64,000 nt of DNA from contig VXLY01000027.1 of NCBI GenBank assembly GCA_009841335.1, forward strand, positions 1-64,000, read 5' to 3'. The number at the start of each line of letters is the position of its first letter. Position 1 is the first letter of the stretch. The stretch is from Rhodothermaceae bacterium. GTDB taxonomy: Bacteria; Bacteroidota; Rhodothermia; Rhodothermales; Bin80. The notes below the pieces were generated by a model that saw only the letters and a program-made list of their open reading frames with translations, was not told the DNA's origin and did not search any database. Shown in pieces: positions 18,758-58,509 of this stretch. The translations under genes and the position numbers were made by a program.

Positions 18758-20093
18758 GTGGTTGGCGCCGCTCATGTTTGCGGTAGCCTTACTTCTAATC
18801 TTTTCGGGTTATCCCGTAGCCTTTTCCCTCGGAGGCGCTTCGCTTATTTTTGCTGTGATTGGCGTTAGCACGGGTTACTTCGACTGGCATCTAATGCTGG
18901 CACTGCCGGATCGCCTGTTCGGCATTATGTCCAATTACACGCTCTTGGCGGTCCCCTTTTTCATCTTCATGGGGACTATGCTCGAAAAGAGCAATCTTGC
19001 AAGGGACTTGCTGCATACGACCGGCCTGCTTTTTGGTCCGGCACGCGGGGGCTTGGCAATCGCGGTCATCCTCGTGGGGGTGCTTCTGGCAGCCGCAACA
19101 GGTATTGTAGGGGCAAGTGTAGTAGCCATGGGAATGATATCATTGCCAATCATGCTCAACAATAATTACTCGGAGGAACTCTCCGCTGGCGTGATTACAG
19201 CAACCGGAACACTGGGGCAGATCATTCCACCCAGTGTAGTACTTGTGGTACTTGCTGATCAATTAGGTGTATCAGTTGGCGATTTGTTTATCGGCGCACT
19301 GGTCCCGGGGGTTTTGCTTGCGCTACTCTACGGGTTGTATACCGCAGGGGTTGCTGTTCTCAAGCCATCCGCTGCGCCAGCGCTACCCCCTGAGGTAAGA
19401 AACGCGGAGCGAGAGGGGCTGCTGCGGAAGGTTTTCCTGGTAATGCTCCCGCCACTGTTGCTCATTTTTGTAGTGCTCGGCAGCATTTTTGCCGGCATTG
19501 CCACACCTACAGAATCAGGAGCTCTTGGAGCTGTTGGTGCCATTGGCCTGGCAGCATTGAATGGCCGTCTGGACAAAAAGGCGCTGCGGGGTACTGTGGA
19601 AGAGACTGTCAAACTGACAGCAATGGTGATGATGTTACTCATTGCTTCCACTGCGTTCGCGCTTGTATTTCGGGGACTGGATGGCGGGATCTGGATTGAG
19701 GATCTACTCGTAAATATTCCCGGAGGCGTAATTGGATTCCTGCTTGTGGCCAACCTCGCGATTTTTATCCTCGGGTTTTTTATTGATTTCTTTGAAATTG
19801 CCTTTATCATTATACCCCTGATGGTTGCACCAGCTGCCGAGCTCCTGAGTCCGATGCTAGGCGTACCCGCTAGCATCGCCCTGATCTGGTTTGGGGTAAT
19901 GGTAGGGATGAACCTGCAGACCTCGTTCCTGACGCCCCCGTTCGGATTTGCTTTATTCTATCTGAGGGGCGTGGCTCCACCGAGCATGCAGACAGCCTCA
20001 ATCTATCGGGGAGTCATCCCGTTTATAGGAATTCAGGTCATAGGTTTGATCCTCCTGATCCTTTTCCCTGACCTGGTTCTTTGGGCACTCTGA
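18744..20093 (+). CDS. dctM: TRAP transporter large permease (DctM-like)
   Basis: A 449-residue membrane protein with about twelve hydrophobic helices, the transport-conducting subunit of a TRAP system. Typical segments are GPARGGLAIAVILVGVLLAA, ATGTLGQIIPPSVVLVVLAD, ATPTESGALGAVGA, and TSFLTPPFGFALFYLRGV near the end. Length is normal. Its 3' end overlaps the extended end of dctP on the other strand by 96 bases. Confidence 0.95.
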   Translation: MPGLEWLAPLMFAVALLLIFSGYPVAFSLGGASLIFAVIGVSTGYFDWHLMLALPDRLFGIMSNYTLLAVPFFIFMGTMLEKSNLARDLLHTTGLLFGPARGGLAIAVILVGVLLAAATGIVGASVVAMGMISLPIMLNNNYSEELSAGVITATGTLGQIIPPSVVLVVLADQLGVSVGDLFIGALVPGVLLALLYGLYTAGVAVLKPSAAPALPPEVRNAEREGLLRKVFLVMLPPLLLIFVVLGSIFAGIATPTESGALGAVGAIGLAALNGRLDKKALRGTVEETVKLTAMVMMLLIASTAFALVFRGLDGGIWIEDLLVNIPGGVIGFLLVANLAIFILGFFIDFFEIAFIIIPLMVAPAAELLSPMLGVPASIALIWFGVMVGMNLQTSFLTPPFGFALFYLRGVAPPSMQTASIYRGVIPFIGIQVIGLILLILFPDLVLWAL

Positions 20094-21218
20094 GTGCCTT
20101 AGGCGCCCCCTTGCCTGCGTTCGTTCGTGCATGTAAGAAAACAGGGCGTATTCTGCTGTGTGAATCCAGTCATCAGAGTCCCGGCGCCATGCGAGAAAGG
20201 AATCATGCACTTGAGCAAAGCCAGGATCCGTACGCCCCTCCTGCAAGAGCTCTTCGGAAGCGGAGTATGCCGCATCCATCACATCCTTCGGAAACACACG
20301 TAGTTCAATGTTGGACTCAAGAATTCGTTGAAAGGCAGGCGGGTTCAAGGCATCATACTTTGCAAGCATGTACTGGTTGGCTTCTGCCATGGCGACTTCC
20401 AATGCAGCCTGATACGACGACGGAAGTTCCTGCATGGCCTGTTGATTTACAAAAAAGGAGAGATTGGCTCCTGGTTCCCACCAGCCTGGGTAGTAGTAGT
20501 AGTTTGCGACCTGATTGAAGCCCAGTTTTTCATCGTCATATGGACCTACCCATTCGGCAGCATCTATTGCTCCACGCTCAAGTGCAGGATAAATTTCTCC
20601 GCCCGGAATCTGCTGGACAGTTACCCCCAGACGGTCCATAACCCGTCCGCCTAATCCAGGAATGCGCATTGAAAGCCCGCGCAGATCCAGCAGGCTGTTG
20701 ATTTCCCGGTTGAACCATCCACCCATCTGCGCGCCAGTATTGCCGCCAGGATAGTTGAGCACACCATAATCTGCAAATAATTCCCGCAGGATTTCCAGTC
20801 CACCCCCTTCATAAACCCAACTGTTAAATTGCCGAGCATTGAGGCCAAAGGGAACCGTGGTTTCAAAAACGAAGGCTAGATTTTTTCCTATGTAGTAGTA
20901 ACCCGCCGAGTGTCCCATTTGCACCGTGCCTTTCTGGACCGACTCAAGTACCTCAAATGCAGGAACCATCTCACCGGCCGGATAAACACGGATGGTGAAC
21001 CGTCCATTGGTCAATTGACTGACACGCTCGCTCATTACCTCCGCTGCCCTATAGATAGTATCTAGAGAGCGGGCGAAACTGGATGCAAGACGCCATCGCA
21101 GCATTGGAGTGTCGGTTTGAACGGCCGGGGCATCACCGCTCTGGGAGCCGCAACCGGTAAGAACAGCACCGGCTGCGGTACCTAGGGCCGCTGATCGGAT
21201 GAATTTTCTACGTTCCAT
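19998..21218 (-). CDS. dctP: TRAP transporter substrate-binding protein (DctP-like), Tat/lipoprotein signal
   Basis: A 406-residue periplasmic binding protein. The N-terminus has RRKF (3-6), a hydrophobic stretch and LTGC with Cys23, suggesting Tat export and lipid anchoring. Family segments include YPAGEMVPAFEVLESVQKGTVQMGH, MRIPGLGGRVMDRLGV and ERGAIDAAEWVGPYDDEKLGF, the pattern of 2-oxoacid/organic-acid TRAP receptors. The last ~31 residues are read from the antisense of dctM and look non-native; relatives end near residue 370, so a lost stop is likely. It follows the SDR gene by 2 bases, so SDR and dctP form one operon. Confidence 0.9.
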   Translation of the reverse strand: MERRKFIRSAALGTAAGAVLTGCGSQSGDAPAVQTDTPMLRWRLASSFARSLDTIYRAAEVMSERVSQLTNGRFTIRVYPAGEMVPAFEVLESVQKGTVQMGHSAGYYYIGKNLAFVFETTVPFGLNARQFNSWVYEGGGLEILRELFADYGVLNYPGGNTGAQMGGWFNREINSLLDLRGLSMRIPGLGGRVMDRLGVTVQQIPGGEIYPALERGAIDAAEWVGPYDDEKLGFNQVANYYYYPGWWEPGANLSFFVNQQAMQELPSSYQAALEVAMAEANQYMLAKYDALNPPAFQRILESNIELRVFPKDVMDAAYSASEELLQEGRTDPGFAQVHDSFLAWRRDSDDWIHTAEYALFSYMHERTQARGRLRHSECPKNQVREKDQEDQTYDLNSYKRDDSPID

Positions 21219-24591: not shown

Positions 24592-24700
24592 GATGAGGAA
24601 AGTGAGTGCCTGGTATTTTCAATAAGCCTCTATCCAGCTAGTGTTCGGAATTGGCTCCATTCACAAAATAAGTGAAGCCCCTTCATGATGTAAGCGCCAC

Positions 24701-26260
24701 TCAGAGTTGGCCCTCGCACGCAACACCATCTCCGTCCCCGTCCAGGCGCAACGGGTCATTTCCCTCTACGGAAAAATTGCGATAAGGAATCGTTTTACAG
24801 CCACTCCTTAGATCCACAGAGAGACATACATACCAGTCTGGATAGCCCGGAGCACAGCTTTTAGGCCGCATCATCGGATATTCGTGTTTCATCTCCTCAT
24901 ACTCTCTTGGAGTAATAATCCGGTGTGGTGGGAGCGCTGGCAGCAGAGGAGGTTCTGGCAGACATCCCGGATCATTCGCGTCAGCCAGGTCATCAAAATC
25001 GTTGTCAACCCCGTCGCTGCAGGATGATCCAGAATCGGGTGACTCGGGATCTGGCCGTGCATTCTTCTTCTGCCACGTTTCTGGAATGCTTTGCCATACA
25101 TCATCATAATAGACATCAAATTGACGTGCCAATCTTGATGATTCAACCAAAAGCGTGTTCTCGTCGTTGCTGCTTTCGCCAGCCGATGTCCAGTTCATAG
25201 AGCCAAGTACAAGGCGGTGACCATCTATTGACGCGGCCTTCATGTGCATTTTGCTTCCCCAGTTCTCAATGCGGACCGGTATGCCGGCTTCCCGCAACAC
25301 TTCGTGCTTGGAGTATCCATTTTTGGCGGCTGTGGCGTCAATGATGACGCGAACATCTACACCACGCCTGTGTGCGTCGATCAGGTCGGCAGTCAAGTAT
25401 TTGGCAGTGAGGAAGAAAACAGCCACATTGATGCGCTTTTTCGCCTTAGCGATTAGGCCACCTACTCCGTAGCGGAGCGAAGCATCTTGCGGTGAAAACC
25501 AGGTTGATACCTTTTCTAATCCGAAATCAAATTCCTCAACACCATCTCGGAGTTTTGAACATTTGCCTTGTCTGTTCCAGAGTTGCTCAAATTCGGCAGT
25601 GTAGACGGCCGCTATCTGTTTGGAGCGCATGACCACCACTGCATTGGCGTTGTAGCCGCCAGTTCCAGAATCAGACAAATTCGCTGAACCTGTCCAAACC
25701 CGCTCGCCATCCACCACAAAGAATTTGTTGTGCATGATATCGTTTATAGCTGGAAATGAGTCGCGCGAAGCATGACCTGCCACAAGAATTTGATCTTCAC
25801 CCAGATCGTAAGCGAGGCACTGCAGCGGCCCTTTAAACCCGTGTGGACGGCTGCACGGAGGGGGCCTTCCTGTATATTCACGGGTACATTCCTGCTCCCG
25901 TGCGAGATCATCCCTAACGCTTCCTATCTGATGCATCCACATTTCCGAGGAGCTATAGTAGTTCTTGTTGTAAACATCCTTGTCCATATATCCTCGCACG
26001 GTGACACCGCGGTCACGCGCTTTCAGCAGCGCTTCCAGGATTTCGGTCTGATTTCGCGCACCATACACAGCAAAGTCAATCGTTGAGTGAGCACGGTTTA
26101 GCAACTCCACTAGCGACGTGCATAGAGTACTGTCACACCTGTCAGCTGGAGCATTAAACTCCCTGGGATCTTGGAGCAGGAGTTCGATGTCCTTTTCTTC
26201 GCCACATCCAATTATGGTGAGACCAATAAGAAGGACATATTTGGGCAGGGTAAGGATCAT
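24701..26260 (-). CDS. Phospholipase D-like lipoprotein with Excalibur-type calcium motif
   Basis: A 519-residue protein with a lipobox at Cys19 (TIIGC). Two HKD motifs are intact: His177-x-Lys179-x4-Asp184 and His339-x-Lys341-x4-Asp346, each followed by GSANLS or GSMNWT. Together they form one active site of a phosphodiesterase acting on lipids or nucleic acids. Residues 413-433 carry a CSDGVDNDFDD...DPGC repeat like those of surface proteins. The final stretch DPLRLDGDGDGVACE (502-516) matches the Excalibur calcium-binding signature. The combination suggests a surface-anchored, calcium-responsive nuclease or phospholipase. No operon partner is apparent. Confidence 0.86.
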   Translation of the reverse strand: MILTLPKYVLLIGLTIIGCGEEKDIELLLQDPREFNAPADRCDSTLCTSLVELLNRAHSTIDFAVYGARNQTEILEALLKARDRGVTVRGYMDKDVYNKNYYSSSEMWMHQIGSVRDDLAREQECTREYTGRPPPCSRPHGFKGPLQCLAYDLGEDQILVAGHASRDSFPAINDIMHNKFFVVDGERVWTGSANLSDSGTGGYNANAVVVMRSKQIAAVYTAEFEQLWNRQGKCSKLRDGVEEFDFGLEKVSTWFSPQDASLRYGVGGLIAKAKKRINVAVFFLTAKYLTADLIDAHRRGVDVRVIIDATAAKNGYSKHEVLREAGIPVRIENWGSKMHMKAASIDGHRLVLGSMNWTSAGESSNDENTLLVESSRLARQFDVYYDDVWQSIPETWQKKNARPDPESPDSGSSCSDGVDNDFDDLADANDPGCLPEPPLLPALPPHRIITPREYEEMKHEYPMMRPKSCAPGYPDWYVCLSVDLRSGCKTIPYRNFSVEGNDPLRLDGDGDGVACEGQL

Positions 26261-27158
26261 GGAGGCGGTTGTGGAACTACAAATAAGTCATGAGTGCAGA
26301 CATCGTCTCTGCATTCTGCTGCAGCTGGTGAAGATAAGAGCTTTCCCAGACACATCCTATTTGAACTTGCCCTACAGACCGCTGACGCGCGACGAGATTG
26401 GAAAAGAGATTGGGCCAATCAAATAGTAAAACAGAAGCAACTGGCGAATGAGTATCCAATTGTGATGTGCAAAGACAGGACGCTCAGGGCAGGCTTAGGT
26501 GAACTTCGGTCATGGGGGTTACGCAGGCGAACGGACTGCAGTGTCAAGCCGCTTCCTTTACAATCTGCAAACCCCTTCATAACCACGATTGCATTTTAAG
26601 CACATTTAGCGCCCCGCTTCCCTATGTACTCGGGACAGCACAAATTGGTGGTGATGTTGACCTCGACGTGAGTGTCAGTTCTGAGATGTCCTGTTTTGTT
26701 GCAGGTGAGGCGTCGTCTGCTGATGCTGTGGAATTCGCTGCTGCCAACATTCTCAACTGCATTACGAGTGACTGTATATCGGTGTTAGCCCAGTTTAGCG
26801 ATAGGTGGGTACTGAGCATCGACTGTGGAGATGGCCCGCAAGAGTATAAGCGCCTAGGTGAATATGATGGGATCTTGTGTAACTTGAGCCCGTAAGGGCG
26901 CATAGCGCGTGCTCGAACAGCCCGGATTGCCTGCTTGACAGGGCAAACCGGGCTGGTGCCCAAGTGCAATACGTGCGCAGCGTATCGTGCGTAACTCCCC
27001 GTATTTTTCATAAAGTGAGCGTTTGGCCTTATCCTAGTCTGCATTGACGACGTACGGGTAAAGAGGGTAGAGTGTCACAAACGCCATTCGGATGGCCGAG
27101 CCCTATATTAATGACAGCATCCATAATTAACAGCGCCTGCGGCATTGAGACCAGTGGC
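26261..27158. other. Long intergenic region with a strong hairpin
   Basis: About 0.9 kb without a recognised gene. A 127-codon frame on the plus strand (26512-26895) and a 140-codon frame on the minus strand (26622-27044) overlap; neither resembles a known protein, and at most one can be real. The clearest structure is the hairpin at 26918-26955, just after the plus-strand frame ends. This may be decayed or unrecognised coding sequence. Confidence 0.4.
26918..26955. repeat. Inverted repeat, 14-bp arms with one mismatch
   Basis: Arm 1 is CAGCCCGGATTGCC (26918-26931) and arm 2 is GGCAAACCGGGCTG (26942-26955), pairing at 13 of 14 positions around a 10-base loop. There is no following T-run on either strand, so it is not a textbook intrinsic terminator. 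It could be a terminator variant, a protein-binding site or a remnant of a mobile element end. Confidence 0.55.
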
Positions 27159-28322
27159 ATGGAAAAATCAGATGGATGGGCGTGGAGTGCTTTGCAACGT
27201 ATTCACAACTGGCAGCAGCTTCAATCCTTTTGGTCAGTCTTCGTATTCGTGTTTATCGTACCCTTTGCAGCATCATGCCAGAGAGGGCCCGATCTCGTAA
27301 GGATCATTGATTCCGAAGTCATTGATTCGCTGCTGGCGGCAGTGCCACAGACATTGATCGACACAGATGCCATGGACGCTCAGACCTGGTATCTGGATAA
27401 AGAAGTGGCTCAGTCGCAGGATTCGCTTGCACTGGGTCCCATTATTTCTTTCACGATTGCACAGGACAGTCTATACATTGCCGACTTCGTTCACAGTCAC
27501 ATTCTTGTAGCCGGGCTGGATGGTCCGCTGCAACGAAGCGTCGGTAGCAAAGGTGAAGGACCTGTGGAATTCTCAAACCTATCCGGCGTTCTCTTTAGCG
27601 GCGATCATTTTTTTGCTATTGAGCCGTTCCGAATCCAGAAGTTGTCCAGAGAGCTATCGTACGTGGCAATTCTGCCAAAGGGAACCGAGAATTTCTTCGG
27701 AATAGAGGGTGCCACTCTGGCTGCTTCGCGCACGCATCTCTATGTTGCTTGCCCGAGGGGTCACGCATACCGTATTTGTCCGAGCAGCAGCGAAGCACCG
27801 TTTGAGGAGGAAGCCCCGTTCTTGCGCTCACTGGATATTGATAGTATGCAGCCCCCGCTGAATAGTACAATTCCTGTGGCCGCCACGGTAGACGGGCGGT
27901 ATGTGTTGGCGGCGTTTGCGGGCCTGCCGTATATCTTCGTATTCAATAGAGCCCATGAACATGTGCACACGATTCGCTTTTACGGCTCTGTCATAGGCGA
28001 GCATGCCAAAAACTATGCCATTCGAGAAGGTGTTCCCCCCGGGGCGGGGGTCGGGCTTAAGTCTTTGTGGCAAAGCGTAACGCTTTCTGAGACGGATATG
28101 ATTGTGACTTCAATTGGTAAGCGAGTCTTTTTTGTTCGCATACTTGAGGGGCAGCGTTTCGAGCACGTAGCCACCGTGCAGTTGAGTACGACGCGGTCCG
28201 CTGATAGTGACGGGGCGGAGGTCGAGACTATCATGCCAAAAAGATTGTTCTTGCACAAGGACTTCCTGTATGTTAGTGGTTTCAGAGTCCCGCACATACT
28301 ACGATATCGGGCAGATTTCTAG
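27159..28322 (+). CDS. 6-bladed beta-propeller (NHL/TolB-like) envelope protein
   Basis: A protein of 387 residues from the ATG at 27159; the frame is open to a GTG at 27072, but the lipoprotein-like signal (hydrophobic run, then FAASC) fits the later start. After export the chain is a beta-propeller: repeated blades such as SLYIADFVHSHILVAGLDG, with the family motif GSKGEGPVEFSNLSGV (equivalent to G-x-GEGPGEF) characteristic of 6-bladed propeller proteins of Bacteroidota. These are thought to bind ligands or partners at the cell surface; no enzymatic residue is evident. Three more members lie in this window (29041, 38174, 39852). Confidence 0.8.
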   Translation: MEKSDGWAWSALQRIHNWQQLQSFWSVFVFVFIVPFAASCQRGPDLVRIIDSEVIDSLLAAVPQTLIDTDAMDAQTWYLDKEVAQSQDSLALGPIISFTIAQDSLYIADFVHSHILVAGLDGPLQRSVGSKGEGPVEFSNLSGVLFSGDHFFAIEPFRIQKLSRELSYVAILPKGTENFFGIEGATLAASRTHLYVACPRGHAYRICPSSSEAPFEEEAPFLRSLDIDSMQPPLNSTIPVAATVDGRYVLAAFAGLPYIFVFNRAHEHVHTIRFYGSVIGEHAKNYAIREGVPPGAGVGLKSLWQSVTLSETDMIVTSIGKRVFFVRILEGQRFEHVATVQLSTTRSADSDGAEVETIMPKRLFLHKDFLYVSGFRVPHILRYRADF

Positions 28323-28556
28323 CGCAATCTGCCCCGATTGTGGCCATTTGGCGCGTTCGTTGTGTTCACCTTCCACGTGGCTGCGGGTCATCTCGCAGAG
28401 TGCTGTGGCCCCCTCCCTGAGGTGTCTTTTAGCCAAGCGGTATTCAACTGCACCTTCGCGTTCCACCAAGTAGTCCATGGCCTCATAGAGATCTTCCGCA
28501 TCGTCCCGTTTGAGTCCTGAGCTCGTCGTTGATGGTCGGACTAGCAGAAGGGGCAT
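28323..28556 (-). pseudogene. Fragment of an IS1634-like transposase
   Basis: The minus-strand frame contains DDAEDLYEAMDYLVEREG, then a segment close to LAKRHLREGATALCEM and SHVEGEH. This matches the central part of IS1634-family DDE transposases (DDLYxAMDWLLERQ...LAxRHL.EGxLVLYDxxSxYFEG). Only about 60-75 residues are recognisable. The start, the rest of the catalytic domain and any terminal repeats are missing, and the frame runs into the end of the propeller gene. It is a decayed insertion-sequence remnant. No full copy was seen in the window. Confidence 0.65.
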
Positions 28557-29040
28557 CCAGATCTGCCTCCCAAGGGGTTTTCATGACGCTGCCCGCCACC
28601 TCGCGGATCTCCTGCGTGCGGGGAAGGCATCGGGGACCGAGAGCGATAGAATAGTTGAAGGATAATGGTCTTGATATCGTGGCGTAAAGGGAGTTTCCAG
28701 ATCGGAGAGCTTCGAAGCTGATACTGTTTGGCCAGTGTGCAGTTGGCCGGAATTAAGTGGGCGGGGCATACGAATCACAGCCTAAACGCTGGTGCAAGAG
28801 AACCTTCGCCGCATCTCTCGCCGTAGACCCGATCCCGGCTCTCTCTGTTCCACGGACTTCATCGAAAAAGGATGCCAAGGACGTTGGAGCCGATCAGATC
28901 TAACTCGACCTTTGTCGGATCTCGTCACTATGTTCGGGAAGACTAGACGATCGACTTGAAAGGCGACTCTAGGATTGGATTGACGTCTCCTTGCAGAGGC
29001 CACCTGGCGTAAATGTGTAATTCTATACGGCAAACAGCTT
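28557..29040. other. Non-coding stretch beside the IS remnant
   Basis: About 480 bases upstream (minus strand) of the transposase fragment. Short frames at 28581-28778 and 28782-29033 do not match the N-terminus of IS1634-type transposases well enough to call. It is probably further decayed mobile-element or spacer DNA. Confidence 0.35.
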
Positions 29041-39851: not shown

Positions 39852-41021
39852 ATGCAAAACAGCTTTTTGAAGCGTTTGTTTTACGTTCTCCTGGCGGTGT
39901 TCTTGGTTGCCATAGTTATTGTTCTGATAGCAACTGTGGCCCGAAGGCTTCCTGACTCAAATGTAGCCGTTCTTCACCCAACTCCCCAAAATATTCCCGA
40001 TGCTACTGTCCTTGTGACAGGAAAGCAGGATTCGGCATATTTCGATATGCCTTACTGGTCGTCAAAACAGCCCAGTGCGCGAATTGGCGTGGCCGAAGGT
40101 CCTCAACATGTCATGCTTGGTAGCGTTCTGGCGGTTTCCGTGGATGCCAATCAGCATGTGTTCATATTGGACGGAGAAAACACCGTAGTACGTATCTACA
40201 GTACGGAAGGAGATTACATTGGTTCTTTTGGGAGGGCTGGAGATGGACCGGGGGAGTTCGGGGATCCCAAGTCCATTGATTTGCTTGAATCTGACAGTCT
40301 TGCTGTGATCATTGGGCGCGAAGAAAGGGTCACAATATATCGAAGATCGGACTCATTGGAGTATGTCTTTGGGCATTCATTTATTCAGCATGATGACGTA
40401 TACAGTGTGGCTGGTTGTGCCATGAATGGGCACATATATGTGCTCGGATATAGTCCAGAAAAAGATGGGGTGATTCACAAATATGACTTAGCCGGGCGTT
40501 TTATAACAGCATTTGGGGACAAGTACGTGGACCATGACCCGTGGGTCGCAGCATCATTGTCACGGCGCGGTCTCCTGGCATGCAGCGACACACATGACAC
40601 GGTTGCATGGATAAGGCGGAATGTGCCAATAGTACATGTATATACAGGAAATGGAGATTTGCTGGAACGGTACAAATTGCAAAATTTTGTACCGGCAGAA
40701 GTCACGCAGCGACTGACTGAAGACGGTCGTCCATCTTTATCGTATAGTCCACCGAAAAAGGGAGAGAGTTGGTTTTCAAATTTATTTACAGATGATGATG
40801 GAGCCTTCATTGTGAGTCACATTACGGTAGAAGATCCTTCTTCCACGCATGGAGATTTTCCGCCGGAAAAGTATCATGCATATCGCCTTAATCCTCATTT
40901 GGGAACGGCAACCTACCTTGGAAGCATTCCTGGAATCGTGGCTATATCACGCAACAAGATTGTTTTGAGGACAGAAACGCCTTTCCCGCAAGTGTTAATC
41001 TACGAGGAGAAGATTCCGTGA
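39852..41021 (+). CDS. 6-bladed beta-propeller protein with N-terminal membrane anchor
   Basis: About 389 residues from the ATG at 39852 (the frame opens two codons earlier at a TTG). An N-terminal helix (LFYVLLAVFLVAIVIVLIATVA) probably anchors the protein. The signature GSFGRAGDGPGEFGDPKSIDLLESDSL is the hallmark of the 6-bladed propeller family. Blade strands such as HVFILDGENTVVRIYSTEGD repeat through the chain. Likely a periplasmic or surface sensor/adaptor. Confidence 0.82.
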   Translation: MQNSFLKRLFYVLLAVFLVAIVIVLIATVARRLPDSNVAVLHPTPQNIPDATVLVTGKQDSAYFDMPYWSSKQPSARIGVAEGPQHVMLGSVLAVSVDANQHVFILDGENTVVRIYSTEGDYIGSFGRAGDGPGEFGDPKSIDLLESDSLAVIIGREERVTIYRRSDSLEYVFGHSFIQHDDVYSVAGCAMNGHIYVLGYSPEKDGVIHKYDLAGRFITAFGDKYVDHDPWVAASLSRRGLLACSDTHDTVAWIRRNVPIVHVYTGNGDLLERYKLQNFVPAEVTQRLTEDGRPSLSYSPPKKGESWFSNLFTDDDGAFIVSHITVEDPSSTHGDFPPEKYHAYRLNPHLGTATYLGSIPGIVAISRNKIVLRTETPFPQVLIYEEKIP

Positions 41022-41788
41022 CAAATAAATCCTAATCTCTATTAGCGGGCATTTGTGCACTCATATTCACGCTCAGTGTGTGTATGGACGGATGGGGTTG
41101 TGTACGTACTGACCGTTACTGTGGATTGGCAGGATCGTGCAAGCAGTTTGGAGTACATTCCGAGGTATACCGTACCGGCAGAAGCCACCTTGGTAACGGT
41201 TTACATGGGATCAAATGCTTGTGTTTTTTCGACTGACAAAGAACTTCCAATATTTTTGAATTGTGCCAGACTTGCTTTGACCGTAAAAGCTGAGACTTCC
41301 AGATATGGAATTATGCGATCGGGGTGTCAACTGATTGGAGTATAGCTGAATCCAAAGCTTGAAATGCCCCGGTAGAAACCACAAGACCTGAACCCAATCT
41401 ACTGCTGCCTGAACACGGCTGCGCTACGCGTGTCCAGCCCTACAGATAGAGTGTTGTACCTGAAAGCGTAGAGCTAATGAATGAGTGCTGTGAAGAGGCA
41501 AGATAGCACGCATTCTTTTGATTAGACCTGTGTGAATGTTACTCTCACGCGTCGCAGTGCGACATAAAAATGGGGATCTGTGTACCAAATTGAGCTTGGG
41601 GAAAAATATCTGGCTTATTGAGGTCGCGTGGCCGAGTGAGTCAGCGTATTTGAACATTGGGCGATGACGTTAATGGCCTATAGATCCCTTAGCCAAAGCC
41701 AATATGACATTTGTTTGGCCCATTATTTGTTTGGTCCTTTAGCGGATGTGCAACTCACGTACATAACTCTATATTCACACGAACAACC
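41022..41788. other. Intergenic region with a possible propeller-gene remnant
   Basis: About 0.77 kb. A plus-strand frame at 41055-41345 (96 codons) contains TDGVVYVLTVTV, RYTVPAEATLVTVYMGSN and STDKELPIF, which look like the last blades of another 6-bladed propeller, but the frame lacks the family signature. It may be a 5'-deleted relative of the gene just upstream. The rest shows no gene, repeat or RNA. Confidence 0.35.
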
Positions 41789-42352
41789 ATGATCAGAAAC
41801 GCTAACACCGCACTCATTGCAATTATCACTACTTCCGTCGTATTGGCGTCTTGTGCCCCAAGTCAGATTCTTGTTGAGACAAACTACGAGGTTGATCAAT
41901 CCCACATCGCCAGTGTTGGCAGTGAAATGTTGGTAATTAAAAAAACTCGTCGAACATCTGGGGCAAACCGGTTTCTACAATACGCATCCAATGTAATCGA
42001 GACAATCAACTTTCACGCTGCTTGTGCTATGCCGTGGTGTATCTTTGCTCCGCAGCACGAGACATCCCGTGTGATCGTAACATTCAACTTCATCGGCACG
42101 CTTACATATACCGGCAAATCGGGATCAAATATCAGGGTTGCGTATCGAGAGTATTCTGGAGTTAACAAACGAGCAGTTGCTGAACCCGCATTTTACCTTG
42201 ATTTAGAATATCCTCTTGAGGATGATGGACCCACAATCATCACATTTCGAGACATTCAGTTGGAGGTGATCGAGGCAACTGGTAGCTACATTCAGTTCAA
42301 AGTTCTTGGCGACCATGGCTTGAACTGGCTCCCAGAACTTGGTTTACATTGA
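41789..42352 (+). CDS. Hypothetical lipoprotein
   Basis: From the ATG at 41789 this is 187 residues. The signal MIRNANTALIAIITTSVVLASC ends in a lipobox. The mature part is beta-strand-rich (FNFIGTLTYTGKSGSNIRVAYREYS, ITFRDIQLEVIEATGSYIQFKVL) and contains a Cys-pair region AACAMPWCIF. I do not recognise the family. The frame extends upstream to 41711, but that part is unlikely to be translated. Confidence 0.6.
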   Translation: MIRNANTALIAIITTSVVLASCAPSQILVETNYEVDQSHIASVGSEMLVIKKTRRTSGANRFLQYASNVIETINFHAACAMPWCIFAPQHETSRVIVTFNFIGTLTYTGKSGSNIRVAYREYSGVNKRAVAEPAFYLDLEYPLEDDGPTIITFRDIQLEVIEATGSYIQFKVLGDHGLNWLPELGLH

Positions 42353-42437
42353 TTCAAGAGGGATTGGCTGTTCCCTATTGGTTCCGCCGCACTTAATCCC
42401 CTTGGTAAATTTAGGTATATAGGCCCCCGCAACTAGT

Positions 42438-44477: not shown

Positions 44478-45431
44478 TTGCCCCAGGAAGGATACGTTCT
44501 GCATACCTACGGAGAAGAGATCTATCTGCGGCATGCAGTTGCCGCAGTTGTTACGCTTCGACGATACGACAAAGTTCGCCCCGTAGCCCTCTACTGCCCA
44601 GCTTCACACGCTGAGGTCTGCTTTCGTAATGGATTGACTGATCTATTTACGACCATCGAGCTGCTGCCGGATGAGAACTGCTCAATCAACGGGTTCAAGC
44701 ATCATCTGCATGAATTCAAGCCATGGGAGCGAAGTCTATACATTGATTGTGACATGGTCTGGTGCAGAAACCCGGATGCGCTCTGGGCACAGTTGGCCGT
44801 GTACCCTTTTACAATTACGGGACTGGAGCGGGCAGACTTTTATTTCGGCGGCCCGAAGAATGCTACAGTGATCCTGGAATTTTTGCGCGACCGCCGCCGC
44901 CGCACACTGAAACGGTTCGGGTTGACACATTTGCCACGCGTGCAGGCCGGGATGATTTATGCTGCGGATCCCGAGGTGACAAAATCTGTCTGCGACGCGG
45001 CAGGGCGTTTTCGGACCCGTGTGTCTGAGACACACTTCAGAACGCGATTACTGGAAGGGCGATCCGAGGAATCCTGTGAATGGAGCCTCGCAATGGCAAT
45101 GAGCCACCTCAGTCTGCCTGTATACCACTGGTACCAAGGTGTAAACAGCCCGCAACTGGATTATATACCCGGCATGACCGAACACACGCCAGACTTTGAG
45201 GATGTGGTTTGTGACTACTACACAGACCGTTTTGTGTACGAAATTCGGGGCCTCAAGAATGCGAGGGCTCGTAAGTTCTTTATGTGGTTGGTGGGTGAAC
45301 TGCTTCGTAGACGGGATTACCAGAGGGTGACTCCATTTGCGCTGCATTTCAGTTGGCTTCACGCAAAGCAACCATTCCACGACTTTGCAGACCGAACGTG
45401 GGACCAGGTGACCGATTCCGCTAGCTCCTGA
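44478..45431 (+). CDS. Glycosyltransferase-like protein with DxD motif (GT8-like)
   Basis: A 317-residue protein from a TTG codon; no ATG or GTG lies between the MlaC stop and this point in frame. The nucleotide-sugar motif is LYIDCDMVW with Asp90-x-Asp92, as in GT8-like nucleotide-diphospho-sugar transferases; the later VQAGMIYAAD and EWSLAMAMSH also fit. It lies 51 bases after mlaC and likely shares the transcript. The acceptor is unknown. The 3' end overlaps the convergent membrane gene by 11 bases. Confidence 0.7.
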   Translation: MPQEGYVLHTYGEEIYLRHAVAAVVTLRRYDKVRPVALYCPASHAEVCFRNGLTDLFTTIELLPDENCSINGFKHHLHEFKPWERSLYIDCDMVWCRNPDALWAQLAVYPFTITGLERADFYFGGPKNATVILEFLRDRRRRTLKRFGLTHLPRVQAGMIYAADPEVTKSVCDAAGRFRTRVSETHFRTRLLEGRSEESCEWSLAMAMSHLSLPVYHWYQGVNSPQLDYIPGMTEHTPDFEDVVCDYYTDRFVYEIRGLKNARARKFFMWLVGELLRRRDYQRVTPFALHFSWLHAKQPFHDFADRTWDQVTDSASS

Positions 45432-47010
45432 AAATGAGGTGCCAGTAAAAAGTCAGGTGGTCTCCGGTATCCGGCAACACGAGTAGAACCGCAAAAGTTG
45501 CTGCGGCCAGGAAGGGCAGAACCAGAATCCCCAAGCTGCTCCCGAGGGCCTGTCCGCGTCCAAAAGTTGCACAGTCCATGGCACTGCTGGCAATACAATA
45601 TACTTTCACGGCAATCCAAGTCAACACAAGGACCAGGGCTAGTTGTCCAAATCGATCGGGATTCAGGCTCGGAGCAATCATCACCATTGGTATCAGTAGT
45701 GCCATTGGAATATAGGCCATGCCGCTTATGACAAAAACCTGCTCCATGGACGTCTTGATTGCTTTACGCGCACCCAGTGCCCCGAAGGTGGCAGACAACA
45801 GTTGGTACATCAGGTAGGCAGCAACAGTGACGAGTATCAAGAGACTTGGACTGGAGGCCAAGTTCGCCACGCGATCCTGAATGTATGGATTTAGTGGAGC
45901 TGCAATAGCCTCGGTTAGCCGGAGCTCTCCGAATGCCTTAATAAATATCAGTATAGTCGCAGCAGTGAGGAGTCCCTGTGCGACGACAAAAACAAAGGAT
46001 GCGCCCCCTAGGAGTGCACACTCACGATATAGGGTCTCCCTGTACAACGCCCGGCTCAAAAAATATCGCCGCAGGATTTCGGCGAACCGTCTAAACCAGA
46101 AGCACAGTATGACAACGAGAAAACAGACGATCCAAGCCAAAATCAGGCTCCAAGCGGGCTTCTTGCGCGGATAACTGCCCATGTCAAACGCGAAGATTTC
46201 CTGGGTATTCGTGTAGATGCCCTGCAGCACACTATACGCAGGTCGTTCCTCATCCGCTGCGTCAATTAGTCCCCATTGAGGACCGGTATCTGCAAAATCC
46301 TGCCACCTATAAACAAAAACTACCTCTACAGTGCTTTCAAGCAATGGGGGCAGATGGTTTTCCAGGTAGCGTGCCTGGGATTCGGGGGAATATTTTCGAC
46401 GTAAACCGAAAGTTTCATCCTCGACTTTTTGCCCAATGCTTGCGAACCCAATGGGTGTTGGTCCTGCCCAGTTTTCCAGCGCAGACGCCGGCGTATATCC
46501 TTTGCGAACATCCACCAAGACAAGATCAACATGTTCGGAACATTGATCCTGTTCCAGAAAAGCGGTGGTGTAGTACAGGACAAGTCCGGAAGCTTCATCG
46601 GCAAGCTGTTCAAAATACTCGCAAGCCCGCGGGGTGCTGGTATCGCTTTTGGTTGATACGCCAAAGTGCTGTGCAGACGGGTGCAGCAGGCTCACCAGCG
46701 TGGCTTGCCAAACCAGGCGCTTCGCATACTCCAGAGAGTCCAACAGCACATCAGCGGGCAAGAATTCGAAGGGCATATCCTGAAACAACTGCAATCCGAG
46801 CGTGTCTGCTACCTCGAGCAGAGCGTTGTCTGTAACCCAGGGCAACCGAACCGCCTCGACACCGGCTCCGTGCATTTTCAAGAGATGCCGGGGAGTGGGC
46901 GGGGCAGGAGCATCCCAGACTATGCCCTTGAGGGGTGGTGACTGGCTATGAGCACGCTGAGTCCAGGCACATAGTAGAACCAGACCCAGAATCACGTATG
47001 TGCGGTTCAT
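45421..47010 (-). CDS. Secreted TIM-barrel-like domain fused to a Yip1-like membrane domain
   Basis: A 529-residue protein. After a signal peptide, residues about 25-285 resemble the TIM-barrel of glycoside hydrolase families 2/5 (PIGFASIGQKV, then YSPESQARYLENHLPPLLES and VFVYRWQDFAD), but no clear catalytic acid pair is evident. Residues about 295-529 contain seven or so hydrophobic helices resembling Yip1. This joins an external sugar-binding/hydrolase-like domain to an inner-membrane domain. It is 6 bases downstream of the M14 gene. Confidence 0.7.
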   Translation of the reverse strand: MNRTYVILGLVLLCAWTQRAHSQSPPLKGIVWDAPAPPTPRHLLKMHGAGVEAVRLPWVTDNALLEVADTLGLQLFQDMPFEFLPADVLLDSLEYAKRLVWQATLVSLLHPSAQHFGVSTKSDTSTPRACEYFEQLADEASGLVLYYTTAFLEQDQCSEHVDLVLVDVRKGYTPASALENWAGPTPIGFASIGQKVEDETFGLRRKYSPESQARYLENHLPPLLESTVEVVFVYRWQDFADTGPQWGLIDAADEERPAYSVLQGIYTNTQEIFAFDMGSYPRKKPAWSLILAWIVCFLVVILCFWFRRFAEILRRYFLSRALYRETLYRECALLGGASFVFVVAQGLLTAATILIFIKAFGELRLTEAIAAPLNPYIQDRVANLASSPSLLILVTVAAYLMYQLLSATFGALGARKAIKTSMEQVFVISGMAYIPMALLIPMVMIAPSLNPDRFGQLALVLVLTWIAVKVYCIASSAMDCATFGRGQALGSSLGILVLPFLAAATFAVLLVLPDTGDHLTFYWHLIFRS

Positions 47011-47016
47011 AATTGA

Positions 47017-49534
47017 TCAATACGTCGCCACGCTTCGCTGTCCTGCGAGGAAAACAGCATTCGCTAGCAGAAGTCGGCCGCTGTAGTAAAAGCCCCGGTA
47101 GATCGGGTTATCAACGAAATAGATGACTTCGCCCCGTCCGACCGATTCCATGCCTAGAACCAGCGAGTTGTTCAGGGCGTCCAGTGCTTCCATACCTGCG
47201 AACCCCGCAACGCGGCTGCCTTCCTTGAGTACGCCGACATTCCATCCGTCCTCCAGCCACGCGTAAGCTCTGCTGCTGCTCTTGAGCGTAAAGTAGTCCT
47301 GTTCGTAGCCAAATGCCAAGGGATGCGTATTATCCAGCTCTGTGCGAAAGATAGCTCCGGTTACATCTTCAGTGATTTCATGGCGATTGCGATCAGCGTA
47401 GGGTCGAAGCCGCACGCCCAGTGAATCTGCATCCTCATCATCTTCGTCCGGCTTGATTTGAAGGCCGAAGCCGTCTTTGCCTGCGAGGAAACGGGTTGCG
47501 TTGCCAAGCGAGATCAAGCGACCACCCTCCCGAAGCCAGTTTTGAATCTCTTCCAGTCGACCCTCGCTCAAGACATCACCGTAGCTGCCGGAGGGTAATA
47601 TGATCACATCATAGCGAAACAGCGGCAGGCTACCAAAATCGTCACTGTTAACCAGCGTAGTACTGTACTCGAGTTGTTCATCAAAGAAATGCCACAGCTC
47701 CCCGAGACTGTACGAACTGACGGCGGGTCCGGCAACGATGGCAATACGTGGTGCGCGCATAAAGACCACATCGCCTGAGCCAAAATCTGCGCCCTCGGTG
47801 ACGCGCGTTGTATTGACAGCCTCGACGTGCTGATTCGTGTAGCGGGCTGCCTGGATGACAAGGGAATCGAAGGCTGCCCCTTCTCCCTCTCGCGTCATAA
47901 TAAGCGTACCCTCGTCGTAGGATTTATTATTGACTTTGAAGGGTAGTTCTGCGTAGCGCACCTTCACACCCTTCCGCATGAGTGCAGCCAGGAATCGGGC
48001 ATCCTCAAAACTCTTCCACTCGGCTAGATAGGCGACGGGGCGGGATGGTAGCGCTTCTGGCTCAGAAACAGGGGCGGTGGGCGTCCACGTTACCTCATCT
48101 TCCGTCGCATACGCTTCCAGGCCGTATACATAGGGCAAGGCCCAAGCTGTAATGTCGTAGCTGAGCGAGTCTTCCAGTTCAGCCTCGGGTTCAAAAAGCA
48201 CACCGGTCAGCACACCTTTTGGCTGTGCAGCTGGAACAACAAGATCCCCAGACTCAATGCTTACACGTTCTGTGGAGCCAGAATGATAGGCAAACCCCGC
48301 TCCTGAACTCGCTGTGGTCGCAAACCCGTAAGCAATACCCAGGAGGTCCAAATGATCGGCGAGTACACGAACCTTATCCTCCTGGCCTGTGCGGCGAACG
48401 ACATAGGCAGCATGCGCTCCACTTGGTCGGGATGCAGCATTCTGGAAGTATTCGGCAAACTCGGTGGTGATACGGGCCCGCTGGTTTGCAGCAACCTCAA
48501 TGGTAGACAGACTTGTCGTATAGTGATGTTCAATTCGGTCGGAAAGTGTCAGGGTATCTCCTTCGGCTGTGATGATGCCAAGTCCTGCACGCCCTGAGCC
48601 GGCCTGTTCATAAGTCATCCCAATTGCTCCATTGAATGTGGGCCATGTATCACCATAACCGGGATAAAACAGATCGAAAATCTGTCTGGTGAAGAACAGC
48701 CAGCCTTCTTCGTCGAAATAGCGTGCATGATTGGCACCTATGAGATTCTGAAGCTCGCGCTGCCATGAGGTGATGTACGCATGGTAGGGGACCGCCGCCG
48801 GAGCAAAAAAAATAGGGACTGTTCACGCTCTGCTCATGAAAATCCACATGGATATGAGGCATCCACCGATTATAGTGTGGAAGGCGCTGACGCGTTTCGA
48901 TTTGTGTTCCCCAGGCCCAATCCCGGTTCAGGTCAAAGTAATAGTGATTGCTTCTTCCCCCTGGCCAAGGCTCTGAGTGCTCACGCGCCTCACCGTGTAC
49001 GTTTGGTGTGTGCCCCCGTGTTTGGTGGTAAAAATGAACATAGCGGTCACGCCCATCCGGGTTAATGCACGGATCAATGATCACGATGGTCTTTTCGAGC
49101 CATGTCTGTACGTCGTTATCCGTACTGCTTACTAGTGTATGAATTACCGCCAATGCAGCTTCCGTGCCCACCGATTCATTACCGTGAACATTATAGCTGA
49201 GCCAAACGATGGCTGGGGTGTCTTCTGCCGGAACTCCTTCCAGGAGACCAGCCCGCTGCAGGTTGGCAGTTCGGATTTCCTCCAGTTTAGCCATATTGTC
49301 GGGCGAAGAGATGATCAGATACTGCAACAGCCGGCCCTCGTAGGTGTGACCGTACTCAATGCGATCCACATTCGCGGCATTGTCCGCAACGTGGCGGACG
49401 TAGTCGGTTACGCGGTGATGGGGCGTGAAACGTTCACCGAGTTCATAGCCCAGGAAATCGGCGGGGCTGCGGAGTTGTGCTTCTGCGCTGTAAACGAGCG
49501 GAATAAGTAAGAAGCAAGCGAGGTAGCGTTTCAT
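47017..49534 (-). pseudogene. M14 zinc carboxypeptidase, frame broken by one base in a T8 run
   Basis: Two adjacent frames make one protein of about 838 residues. The 5' frame (48650-49534) has the signal peptide and metal site: His117-x-x-Glu120 in NVHGNES, DLNRDW at 201-206 and DFHEQ (His233). After VNSPYFF it changes frame; removing one T from the run of eight at 48805-48812 restores APAAVPYHAYITSW and leads straight into the 3' frame (47017-48618, starting with no plausible start codon). The 3' part is a beta-rich and GATase-like C-terminal region. Either a true null allele, a sequencing error, or slippage in a homopolymer. It is the first gene before the TIM-barrel gene and its start overlaps recJ (ATGA). 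Confidence 0.85.
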
Positions 49535-51279
49535 GATCCGTTGTTTTTCGAGCTATGTTCACGTAGTGCCTCAATGCGAAGTTGTGTAGTCACTCGGCCG
49601 TTCCACCTGTTCTCCTCCACATAGCACAAGATGTCCAGTGCGGTCTGTTCTTCGCGGGCTTTCTCGGCGATGGCATGGTGTCGGCCCTGCCAGAATCCGA
49701 TGGCATCCATGATCATATTGGATTGTGGCTCTTTCAAGAGCATTTTCAGGTGCTGTCCACCCCTAAGCAGCCGCACGGATACAGGCTGCAGTCCTTCCAC
49801 AAAAAAGAGTGGAGCTTCATTCTCTTTGCCGAAGGGCTGACAGGATTTGAGCACTCGTTCAAATTTTCCTGGGATCATGACGAGCTTCAACTGAGCATCG
49901 TACTCCAGCTCCGGTTCAACTACCTGTCTGCCCACCTGTGAGAATACTTCGGCATTCAGTTTTTCTTTGAAAAGGGGAAGGTCTTCTTTCTTCAAGGTTA
50001 GTCCGGCCGCCTTTGCGTGGCCTCCGAATCGGATCAACATTTCCGCACAACCTCTTATTGCATCAAGGATATGAATATCACCATGTGTACGAACACTACC
50101 AAAAACCTCTTCGCCGTCCGAATTCGGAACATCTGTTAGCATTACAGCCGGTCGTCCGAATTCCCCTACCATTTGTGATGCTGCCGAGCCTAGGATGCCT
50201 GGATGCCAATCTGGGTGGTGGAGTACGAGCGCGCTCGTATGGGATCCGGCCAGTTGTGTTTGCGCGAGCTTCTTTGCGGTTGGACGTAGCCGAGCTGCCT
50301 GTTTTTTTCTATCTGTGTTGAGCTCATTAAGCCGTTCAGCGTAAGCCGTGGCTTCGCTTTCTGATTCCGTCATTAACAACGCAAGTGCTTCGTCTGCATG
50401 AGCGAGCTTACCTGCAGCGTTCAGACGGGGGCCAAGCTGCATAGCTATATCGTTCGCCGTCAGGTGTTCCTGATCACAACCGGAAGCAGATGCGAGTGCC
50501 CGGAGGCCCGCGGACGGCGCGGCACGCAGCTTCTCTAATCCCTCACGTACCAGGATGCGGTTCTCGTCCACCAAAGGCATAATATCGCATACCGTTGAGA
50601 TTGCCACGAGGTCAAGGTATTCGTCCGCCAGACTGACAGGTTGATCAAGCTCTTCCAGCGTCACCTTGATCAGTTTGTAGGCAAGAGCACAGGCGGATAT
50701 ATCTTTCAATGGGTAATCGCATCCTTTCCGTTTGGGATTGACGTGCGCGCAGCAGACCGGGTTTTTGCCCTCATTCTGATGGTGATCACAGATAATGAGA
50801 TCTATACCAGCCTCCTTCGCCAATGCTGCAGTTTCCTCATCATTGGTGCCACAATCCACGACAACTATTAGGGAGCATTCCCTTGAACGCGCGAGCTCAA
50901 CACCGCTCGCATGAAATCCGTGGTTCTCTTTTTGACGATGAGGAATATATGACGATGTCGTCAGGCCATTGGACCGCAGGAATTGCAGGACCAAGGCAGT
51001 GGACGTGACACCATCCGCGTCAAAATCTCCGTAGACGAGTACTTTTTCCTTCGTCTTAATCGCCCGTGCAATACGCCGACCAGCAACATCAATATCAGCT
51101 AACAAATGTGGATCATGCAGGGAAGCCCGCGTCGCTCGGAAATAATGTCGTGCGCTATCCAATGAGTCAATACCACGCAGTATCAGAAAGCGCGTCAGTG
51201 GCTCCGGTAGCGCATTCAACTCATCGCTGAGTGCCTGCACGGCAGCTTCATCCCCTACGGGACGCTCGGTCCATAGCAT
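49531..51279 (-). CDS. recJ: Single-stranded-DNA-specific exonuclease RecJ
   Basis: A 582-residue DHH-family 5'-3' exonuclease for recombination and repair. YGDFDADGVTSTALVL (83-98) is motif I with the metal-binding aspartates, then VVDCGTND and ICDHHQN are motifs II and III. The DHHA1 region (IRFGGHAKAAGLTL) follows. Length is typical. It overlaps the M14 gene by 4 bases (ATGA), an unusual translational coupling. The upstream 480 bases hold no gene. Confidence 0.95.
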   Translation of the reverse strand: MLWTERPVGDEAAVQALSDELNALPEPLTRFLILRGIDSLDSARHYFRATRASLHDPHLLADIDVAGRRIARAIKTKEKVLVYGDFDADGVTSTALVLQFLRSNGLTTSSYIPHRQKENHGFHASGVELARSRECSLIVVVDCGTNDEETAALAKEAGIDLIICDHHQNEGKNPVCCAHVNPKRKGCDYPLKDISACALAYKLIKVTLEELDQPVSLADEYLDLVAISTVCDIMPLVDENRILVREGLEKLRAAPSAGLRALASASGCDQEHLTANDIAMQLGPRLNAAGKLAHADEALALLMTESESEATAYAERLNELNTDRKKQAARLRPTAKKLAQTQLAGSHTSALVLHHPDWHPGILGSAASQMVGEFGRPAVMLTDVPNSDGEEVFGSVRTHGDIHILDAIRGCAEMLIRFGGHAKAAGLTLKKEDLPLFKEKLNAEVFSQVGRQVVEPELEYDAQLKLVMIPGKFERVLKSCQPFGKENEAPLFFVEGLQPVSVRLLRGGQHLKMLLKEPQSNMIMDAIGFWQGRHHAIAEKAREEQTALDILCYVEENRWNGRVTTQLRIEALREHSSKNNGS

Positions 51280-56019: not shown

Positions 56020-58509
56020 ATGAACATGCGCCTCTTGACCTTATCACTACTGTTATTTAGTCTGCCTGCGTACGGGCAGGGAGTACAGTCCATTACCGAG
56101 AAAACAAAGGACATGGACAAACGGGACGGTTTCTTTCCCGTGTACTGGCATGCGGATACCGGTGAAATCTATCTTGAAATCCCTGCACTGAATCAGGAGT
56201 TCATCTATGTAACCTCCATGCCTGCAGGGTTGGGATCAAACGACATTGGATTAGACCGAAGCCAGTTAGGTAGTACGCGCCTGGTCCGGTTTGAACGTAG
56301 CGGCCCCAAGATTCTTCTCGTAATGCCAAACCTGCGCTATCGCGCAGATTCGGAATCAGCAGCGGAGAGAGCCTCCGTCGGTGAGGCCTTTGCGGAAGCT
56401 ATCCTCTGGGGGTTCAAGGTTGAGGCCGAGGAGGAAAATAGAATCCTTGTAAATGTGACAGATTTTGTTGTTAGGGATGCCAACGGAATTACTCGCAGGT
56501 TACGGGGGGCGCAGCAGGGTAATTTCAGCTTGGACAAGAGTCGAAGTGCTCCCGTCCCAGATATGCTCAAGGCATTCCCGCGAAATACAGAGATGGAAGC
56601 GCGAATAACGTTCACATCTGATGCTCCGGGACGCTTTGTACGTGATGTGGCAGCTGATCCCTATTCGGTGACCCTAAGCGTGCGGCACTCGTTTGTTATG
56701 CTGCCCGATGAGGCGTACACTCCCAGAGTATTTCATCCGGGAGCCGGGTACGGTGCCATAAGCTATATGGATTATGCAGCACCCATCGGAGAGGATATGG
56801 TGAAACGCTACATTCGGCGTCACCGTCTGTTCAAGGCGGATTCAAGTGCGGCAGTCAGCGACCCTGTGTCACCTATAGTGTACTACCTAGATCCAGGTAC
56901 ACCCGAGCCGGTCAGGGGGGCGCTCCTGGATGGCGCCCGTTGGTGGACAGATGCATTTGAAGCTGCCGGCTTCTCCAATGCTTTTCGGATTGAAATATTG
57001 CCGGATGGAGCAGATCCAATGGATGTACGCTACAATACGATCCAGTGGGTACACCGCGCTACACGCGGTTGGAGTTATGGGTCAAGCGTGACAGACCCCC
57101 GCACCGGTGAGATCATCAAGGGGCATGTGTCACTTGGTTCACTTAGGGTCCGACAAGACTACCTTATTGCCGAAGGGCTACTTGCTCCGTACGGCGATTC
57201 CCTCGCAGCTGACGATCCAATGTTGTCCATGTCACTCGCACGTATCCGGCAACTGTCTGCTCACGAGGTCGGACACACTCTGGGCCTCAGCCATAATTTT
57301 GCATCCTCTGTCAATGGTCGGGCGTCCGTTATGGACTATCCAGCCCCATATGCTGTGTTTGATGAAGCCGGAGAGATCCGTTTGGATGAGGCCTATTCAA
57401 CCGGTATCGGTGAGTGGGACAAGGTTGCCATTGCCTACGGGTATGCTAAGCCGTTACCCGGTGACAGCGAAGAGGCGCTATTGAGCGCAATCTTGCAACA
57501 GGCCTGGGATAATGGCTTGCATTATATCACGGACGCGGATGCACGCCCTTCCGGTGCAGCACATCCGCTCGCCAACCTCTGGGACAATGGTGACGATATG
57601 GTAAGCGCCCTTCACCACGAAATGGCGATCAGGGACGCTGCTCTGGCGCGATTTGGTCAGGAAGTTATTCGTCAAGGACGTCCGCTGGCAACCATGGAGG
57701 AAGTTCTGGTCCCACTCTACTTACGACACAGGTATCAGGTGGAGGCTACTGTCAAATTACTGGGCGGAGTAACCTATACCTATGCGATGCGTGGAGACGG
57801 TCAGGCGCTGGTCGAACCGGTTACGGGTTCGGTGCAGCTTGCAGCGCTGAAAGCATTGACGGAGGTGGTTTCTCCAGAGGCCCTACGCGTCCCTGAAAGC
57901 GTCCGTTCCGGTATGCCTCCCCGCCCACCCGGGTTTTCGGCGCATCGCGAGTTGTTTGATCGTCATACGGGCCTGATATTTGATGCTTACACACCTGCTG
58001 CTGCGGTTGCAACACTGGTATTTGCTCAGATCCTCAATCCAGCGCGCACAGCCCGTATGGCGTACCAGCGTGACCACGACGACACCCTCCCCGATTTTCA
58101 TGGCGTTATGGAGGTCGTGAGCGACGCAGTCTGGGGGATACCTGTGGCTGATGATCCGTACGATGCCGAATTGCAGCGCGTAGTGCAACAGGTATGGATT
58201 GATGAGTTGATTGGATTGGCGAATCAGCGTGATGCAGCCCCAGCGGTGAGGGTGATGGTGATGGAGCGGCTTCGTGAGTTCACACAGTGGCTCGCGGAGA
58301 CACAGGTGCCCCAGCAAGATACAGAAACCCGCTATCATCGCCGGATGGTACAGGATCAAATTGAGCAATACCTCTTGAGAGAATACACGCCTGATGAGCG
58401 CCGGCCTCGTACCGTGATGCCACCAGGCTCTCCGATCGGATCTGAGGTACGCCGCCAGATGCAGCGTGAATTACTCTCAGCTACTGCAATTGAGTGGTGC
58501 AGCCACTGA
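56020..58509 (+). CDS. Large zinc-dependent metalloprotease (DUF5117/DUF4953 type)
   Basis: An 829-residue exported enzyme. A signal peptide (about 1-19, LPAYGQ) is followed by the family start KTKDMDKRDGFFPVYWH. The metal-binding motif HEVGHTLGLSHNF gives His415, Glu416, His419 and His425, a metzincin-like extended site; the Met-turn equivalent ASVMDYPAP is at about 436-444. The regions before and after match the DUF5117 and DUF4953 domains. Length is usual. Probably an outer-envelope or secreted peptidase for protein degradation. It ends 10 bases before the start of the RecQ-PRTase gene, on the same strand. Confidence 0.93.
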   Translation: MNMRLLTLSLLLFSLPAYGQGVQSITEKTKDMDKRDGFFPVYWHADTGEIYLEIPALNQEFIYVTSMPAGLGSNDIGLDRSQLGSTRLVRFERSGPKILLVMPNLRYRADSESAAERASVGEAFAEAILWGFKVEAEEENRILVNVTDFVVRDANGITRRLRGAQQGNFSLDKSRSAPVPDMLKAFPRNTEMEARITFTSDAPGRFVRDVAADPYSVTLSVRHSFVMLPDEAYTPRVFHPGAGYGAISYMDYAAPIGEDMVKRYIRRHRLFKADSSAAVSDPVSPIVYYLDPGTPEPVRGALLDGARWWTDAFEAAGFSNAFRIEILPDGADPMDVRYNTIQWVHRATRGWSYGSSVTDPRTGEIIKGHVSLGSLRVRQDYLIAEGLLAPYGDSLAADDPMLSMSLARIRQLSAHEVGHTLGLSHNFASSVNGRASVMDYPAPYAVFDEAGEIRLDEAYSTGIGEWDKVAIAYGYAKPLPGDSEEALLSAILQQAWDNGLHYITDADARPSGAAHPLANLWDNGDDMVSALHHEMAIRDAALARFGQEVIRQGRPLATMEEVLVPLYLRHRYQVEATVKLLGGVTYTYAMRGDGQALVEPVTGSVQLAALKALTEVVSPEALRVPESVRSGMPPRPPGFSAHRELFDRHTGLIFDAYTPAAAVATLVFAQILNPARTARMAYQRDHDDTLPDFHGVMEVVSDAVWGIPVADDPYDAELQRVVQQVWIDELIGLANQRDAAPAVRVMVMERLREFTQWLAETQVPQQDTETRYHRRMVQDQIEQYLLREYTPDERRPRTVMPPGSPIGSEVRRQMQRELLSATAIEWCSH

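Follow-up and report, generated by a model that had tools for sequence, protein, structure and literature searches.

The window analysed here, i.e. the whole stretch of 64,000 nucleotides, has a GC content of 52% and belongs to a Rhodothermales-type draft genome of 3.49 Mb in 121 contigs. Its minus strand carries a gene for a probable M14-type zinc metallopeptidase, which is interrupted at a run of eight T and lies between a recJ-like gene and a gene for a 529 amino acid long protein. The locus comprises the following features:

49531 to 51279, minus strand: recJ-like gene (DHH, DHHA1, RecJ_OB); its stop overlaps the start codon of the M14 gene (ATGA, 49531 to 49534)
48806 to 49534, minus strand: 5' part of the M14 gene, 243 codons, with a signal-peptide-like hydrophobic start (judged by eye), a PF00246 match and the conserved HGNE and DFHE motifs
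48805 to 48812, minus strand: T8 run and site of the frame break; T7 in the nearest relative (G008) and T6 in G007
48650 to 49534, minus strand: ORF readable from the start codon, 294 amino acids, with the last 51 residues out of frame with respect to the relatives
47017 to 48804, minus strand: 3' part of the M14 gene, 595 codons and a stop, open throughout, under purifying selection and carrying the invariant YEQ glutamate (48609 to 48607)
45421 to 47010, minus strand: downstream gene for a 529 amino acid long protein without a Pfam match at E 0.001, beginning 6 bases past the M14 stop

The overlap between the recJ-like gene and the M14 gene, together with the short gap to the downstream gene, suggests that the three genes probably share one transcript. 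A promoter and terminator scan returned 10 promoter sites, compared with 5.1 expected by shuffling, and 10 terminators, compared with 6.6 expected. The 529 amino acid long protein contains hydrophobic stretches, as judged by eye. A second large zinc peptidase gene, encoding a DUF4953 met-zincin with DUF5117 and DUF5118, is located at 56020 to 58509 and starts approx. 6.5 kb from the M14 gene.

On the coding strand, the run consists of exactly eight T, and it is at this run that the reading frame changes. The 5' frame begins with the ATG at 49534 and ends after 243 residues with NSPYFF at 48806; read on without a shift, it gains a further 51 residues before it reaches a stop at 48650. The 3' frame spans positions 48804 to 47017 and provides 595 residues, starting with APAAVPYHAYITSW (APAAVPY...), before its stop at 47017. 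Together, the two parts comprise 838 residues, exactly as many as the intact L033 orthologue. The sequence-only reading had located the split at this T8 run and had proposed that the frames join into a protein of normal length, about 838 residues, once one T is removed; position, frame change and length all agree with this proposal. In G008, residues 1 to 243 of the 5' part and residues 1 to 595 of the 3' part are each matched at 97% and adjoin within one open frame of 844 amino acids, which excludes a chance juxtaposition of unrelated fragments. The existence of a second intact M14 copy was considered and rejected, as this genome contains a single location for the 3' part and, apart from the gene itself, the 5' part matches just a paralogue with 31% identity on contig C22.

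The assignment to the M14 family, also made in the sequence-only reading, is confirmed by a match of the 5' part to PF00246 (Peptidase_M14) with 71.8 bits, well above the curated cut-off of 21.6, and the gene product is a probable exported M14-type zinc metallopeptidase with its start judged by eye. The alignment covers only profile positions 3 to 139 of 286, i.e. about half of the profile, and has the same limit in the intact orthologue. For the 3' part, the Pfam search returned no match above the cut-off. The NCBIfam search yielded just three matches, all far below cut-off. In 11 intact orthologues, the HGNE and DFHE motifs are conserved, as is a glutamate further downstream, and H117, E120, H233 and E309 (L033 numbering) are invariant. 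We take H117, E120 and H233 to be the zinc ligands, and E309, the glutamate of the YEQ motif, is presumably the catalytic base, as judged from what is generally known of M14 enzymes and from its spacing. The catalytic role of the YEQ glutamate is probable; it rests on invariance, spacing and such general knowledge, because PF00246 aligns no further than profile position 139, also in the case of the intact protein. Thus, the earlier statement that all zinc-site residues are retained in the 5' part holds for the three putative ligands, and has to be complemented by the finding that the invariant glutamate is encoded in the 3' part. In this genome, the HxxE...H zinc site and the downstream glutamate are consequently distributed over two different frames instead of one polypeptide, and the 5' product should be inactive because it lacks the conserved YEQ glutamate. 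An AlphaFold2 model of the intact L033 orthologue, for which 11 of the 12 loci from named genomes were aligned and L044 (31% identity) was left out, had a mean pLDDT of 53.8, with residues 157 to 372 below 50, and a profile search of solved structures produced one weak match (E 0.0049) that ended before the glutamate. The protein therefore resembles M14 zinc carboxypeptidases in its PF00246 match above the cut-off in the 5' part and in the HGNE, DFHE and downstream glutamate residues of its orthologues, but differs from them by the partial profile match, by a long C-terminal region without a Pfam match above the cut-off, and by the broken gene in this genome.

The 5' part is matched in 54 of the 59 genomes searched, our genome included, and 29 relatives possess a locus that spans the junction and could be compared at this site. 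All 29 contain the gene in one open frame of 833 to 947 amino acids, so that the comparison with related genomes suggested in the sequence-only reading reveals a whole gene and a run of two to seven T in every relative. At this site, the T run reaches a maximum of T7 in G008, T6 in five relatives (G007, G005, G014, G044 and G021) and T2 to T4 in the remaining 23. A run of T8 thus occurs in none of the other genomes compared. G008 and G007 are the nearest relatives, with 97% and 89% amino acid identity, and for these two the run length increases with relatedness: the site reads TAC TTT TTT GCT (T6) in G007 and TAT TTT TTT GCT (T7) in G008, and carries T8 here. Nine genomes belong to the same genus; eight of them are among the 29 relatives, and the ninth is G009, in which a contig end truncates the gene. 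The truncated G009 gene is found at C103:3-1637, and a short segment at C173:3-134, also at a contig end, covers residues 51 to 94 a second time, as if the assembly graph had branched within the M14 gene. A search of named genomes retrieved 12 loci, all of them MAG records, the closest being JAPPGC010000098.1 (RHO1_bin_46, 97%). Near relatives carry the labels RHO and CAR, which presumably point to sponge samples.

For the two parts of the broken gene, the dN/dS values against G008 are 0.10 (5' part) and 0.09 (3' part). By using G007 as a third genome, the changes could be assigned to branches. In the 3' part, 21 synonymous and 3 non-synonymous changes were assigned to the branch of this genome and 22 and 6 to the G008 branch, with 14 ambiguous codons left out; for the 5' part, the corresponding numbers are 8 and 2 versus 9 and 3, with 7 ambiguous codons. 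The substitution pattern of the 3' part does not differ between the two branches (Fisher P = 0.48). In a simple mixture model, so few replacements would be obtained with P = 0.049 or 0.011 if function had been lost for 5% or 10% of the branch, respectively. Compared with G008, the M14 gene contains no other indel, and compared with G007 there is one in-frame difference of 3 bases in the 5' part. Neither further disabling changes nor relaxed selection, as expected for a decaying pseudogene, were detected 3' of the break. The sequence-only reading had named additional damage in the 3' part as the sign of simple decay; this part contains no further stop and its substitutions are mostly synonymous. 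An old pseudogene was therefore rejected, given that only 3 of the 24 assigned changes in the 3' part are non-synonymous. The small number of replacements suggests instead that the frame break is either very young, not real, or compensated.

The frequency of similar breaks in the assembly was determined by aligning the window to G008, which covered 57,510 bases. Of these, 49,287 belong to 44 genes picked from the ORF list by length and position; the G008 alignment is absent for positions 24604 to 28619 and 40072 to 42412. This comparison revealed 44 indels, 40 of which lie outside the picked genes, including 7 in one unpicked ORF (740 to 1126). The four indels inside genes all change the frame: the T8 run, a TTCG duplication at 20125, a T5/T4 difference in a sulfatase gene, and a single base bordering a start codon (37589). 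Against G007 (36,784 bases), 29 indels were counted, and the 11 that change the frame inside picked genes consist of four compensating pairs, one start-codon indel, the TTCG duplication and the T8 run. The TTCG duplication is a 4-bp tandem duplication in a minus-strand gene (19998 to 21218) and absent from both G008 and G007; it shifts the frame near the end of a gene for a DctP-type solute-binding protein, which thereby receives a longer tail (406 amino acids versus 383 in both relatives), and it is not a homopolymer miscall. In the sulfatase gene (13493 to 14797), the signal-peptide region contains T5 here and T4 in the G008 orthologue (L069, about position 2944), and it is the G008 frame that is broken.

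Across the whole genome, 395 exact T7 runs, 57 T8 runs and 4 runs of T9 or longer are present on the two strands, and this steepening drop suggests that the penalty on T runs grows above eight. A position inside a frame of 300 codons or longer, flanked both 5' and 3' by 60 or more open codons, is seen for 23 of the remaining 56 T8 runs but not for the one at 48805 to 48812. When only a total open length of at least 300 codons is considered, 29 of the 56 qualify, as does the broken M14 gene (502). A loose rule for frame breaks, which requires arms of at least 60 codons, flags 10 of the 57 T8 runs, including the one studied here, but only the latter is flanked by two long arms, of 246 and 499 codons. 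Among the nine others flagged, the translations of two (L085 and L118) were inspected and appear by eye to represent neighbouring genes or chance frames. Because 23 of the 56 runs are located well inside long frames, T8 runs are not generally miscalled. The idea that the assembly is rich in indels was thus unsupported, both by the commonness of T8 runs inside long frames and by the finding of just 4 in-gene indels in approx. 49 kb relative to G008.

Since the assembly contains so few coding indels, we favor a real, ordinary and very recent +1 insertion in the T run of a chromosomal M14 gene, to which we assign a probability of roughly 0.58. In the proposed sequence of events, Tyr-Phe-Phe-Ala would have been encoded with T6 at the beginning, as in G007; a synonymous exchange of TAC by TAT would have extended the run to T7, as in G008; and replication slippage in the lengthened run would have generated T8. 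The resulting product would end 51 residues past the run. It would contain neither the conserved YEQ glutamate nor the last 595 residues and is expected to be inactive, with the mutation being too young for decay elsewhere in the gene. The T8 allele may be fixed or may be present in just a part of the population behind the assembly.

The sequence-only reading had offered sequencing error, phase variation and slippage without choosing between them, and the comparison of relatives narrows this choice. Phase variation, in which the run length would switch the peptidase on and off within a population, could be suspected from a simple repeat within the reading frame of a probable exported enzyme, again with its start judged by eye. 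It is, however, very improbable, as the tract is not maintained as a repeat (T2 to T4 in 23 of 29 relatives) and as the run at 48805 to 48812 is the only one of 57 T8 runs at which a frame with long arms on both sides is broken. Programmed ribosomal or transcriptional frameshifting, which would yield two useful products, has in its favor that the run holds U UUU UUU in frame, a classical slippery string. Yet all 29 relatives encode a single frame with T2 to T7, and this lack of conservation contradicts a programmed or selected recoding site; moreover, a -1 ribosomal shift at U UUU UUU would enter a frame other than the one with 595 codons, and folding of the 121 bases surrounding the run, the one stretch tested, is no more favorable than that of shuffled sequences (z = 0.69). 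Programmed frameshifting was rejected on these three grounds, and its probability is negligible. Recoding of a programmed or selected kind thus lacks support, and what is left is a recent indel or a consensus error, with weak rescue by slippage as a possible addition.

The main rival to a real mutation is a consensus error, in which sequencing or a collapse of strains during metagenome assembly would have added the extra T while the gene of the organism is intact. We consider this rather unlikely, but it draws on several observations: the genome is a draft of 121 contigs, all 12 loci from named genomes are MAG records, relaxed selection is absent, and the sulfatase break in G008 brings both assemblies to one internal one-base break each in approx. 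49 kb of genes. In addition, a survey of prokaryotic frameshifts in 1106 genomes attributes singletons to indel mutation or sequencing error and expects the latter, not a genuine indel, for homologue-validated singletons, the class to which the T8 run belongs (PMC3711429); this expectation counts against a real mutation. Like these private homopolymer frameshifts (PMC3711429), the T8 run is a one-base indel in a gene with intact homologues and without a conserved site, and nothing distinguishes it from them save the absence of further damage. Against an error stand the lack of an excess of coding indels relative to G008 and the 23 of 56 other T8 runs that are embedded in long open frames. An error and a rescued gene are equally compatible with the clean 3' part. 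As for rescue, RNA polymerase might drop one U on the T8 run in some transcripts, so that some full-length peptidase is made and selection is kept, as in a pseudo-pseudogene; this is improbable, and marginally more so in the specific form that T8 is fixed in the lineage and the loss of one U restores enough peptidase for selection, in a genome of moderate GC content and at a run shorter than the usual nine. In line with rescue are the clean 3' part, the run counts (395 T7, 57 T8 and 4 T9 or longer), which look as if longer runs were costly, and a published study according to which the E. coli polymerase requires at least seven T, slips more readily on T than on A, and is discussed under deletion-type slippage for a reporter mutant with eight consecutive T (PMC6260861). 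A parallel is provided by Blochmannia, where frameshifts in polyA/T tracts of otherwise conserved genes may be corrected by slippage (PMC3017870); the break studied here differs in being found in one genome only and not shared between species, in the window GC content of 52% and in a run of just eight. Other observations speak against rescue. T8 runs well inside long frames (23 of the 56 others) make a very slippery T8 unlikely, selection against A/T runs is described as evident at nine in many genomes, with a run of eight A called non-slippery (PMC1088944), and a single slip would have to remove a U, whereas insertions by the E. coli enzyme exceed deletions threefold (PMC6260861). Likewise, deletions in runs are reported to be rare in E. 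coli transcripts, where no frame-restoring transcription error was detected in that study (PMC5574713). With eight T, the run falls between the published limits for slippage of at least seven T (PMC6260861) and nine (PMC1088944), which is why weak rescue is possible; efficient rescue is unlikely.

If rescue by slippage were true, the M14 gene would represent a natural example of slippage close to the minimal length of slippery runs. The break is mostly an issue of annotation: a gene caller would give two ORFs, and the 5' one would be labelled as a carboxypeptidase despite the missing glutamate that is probably catalytic.
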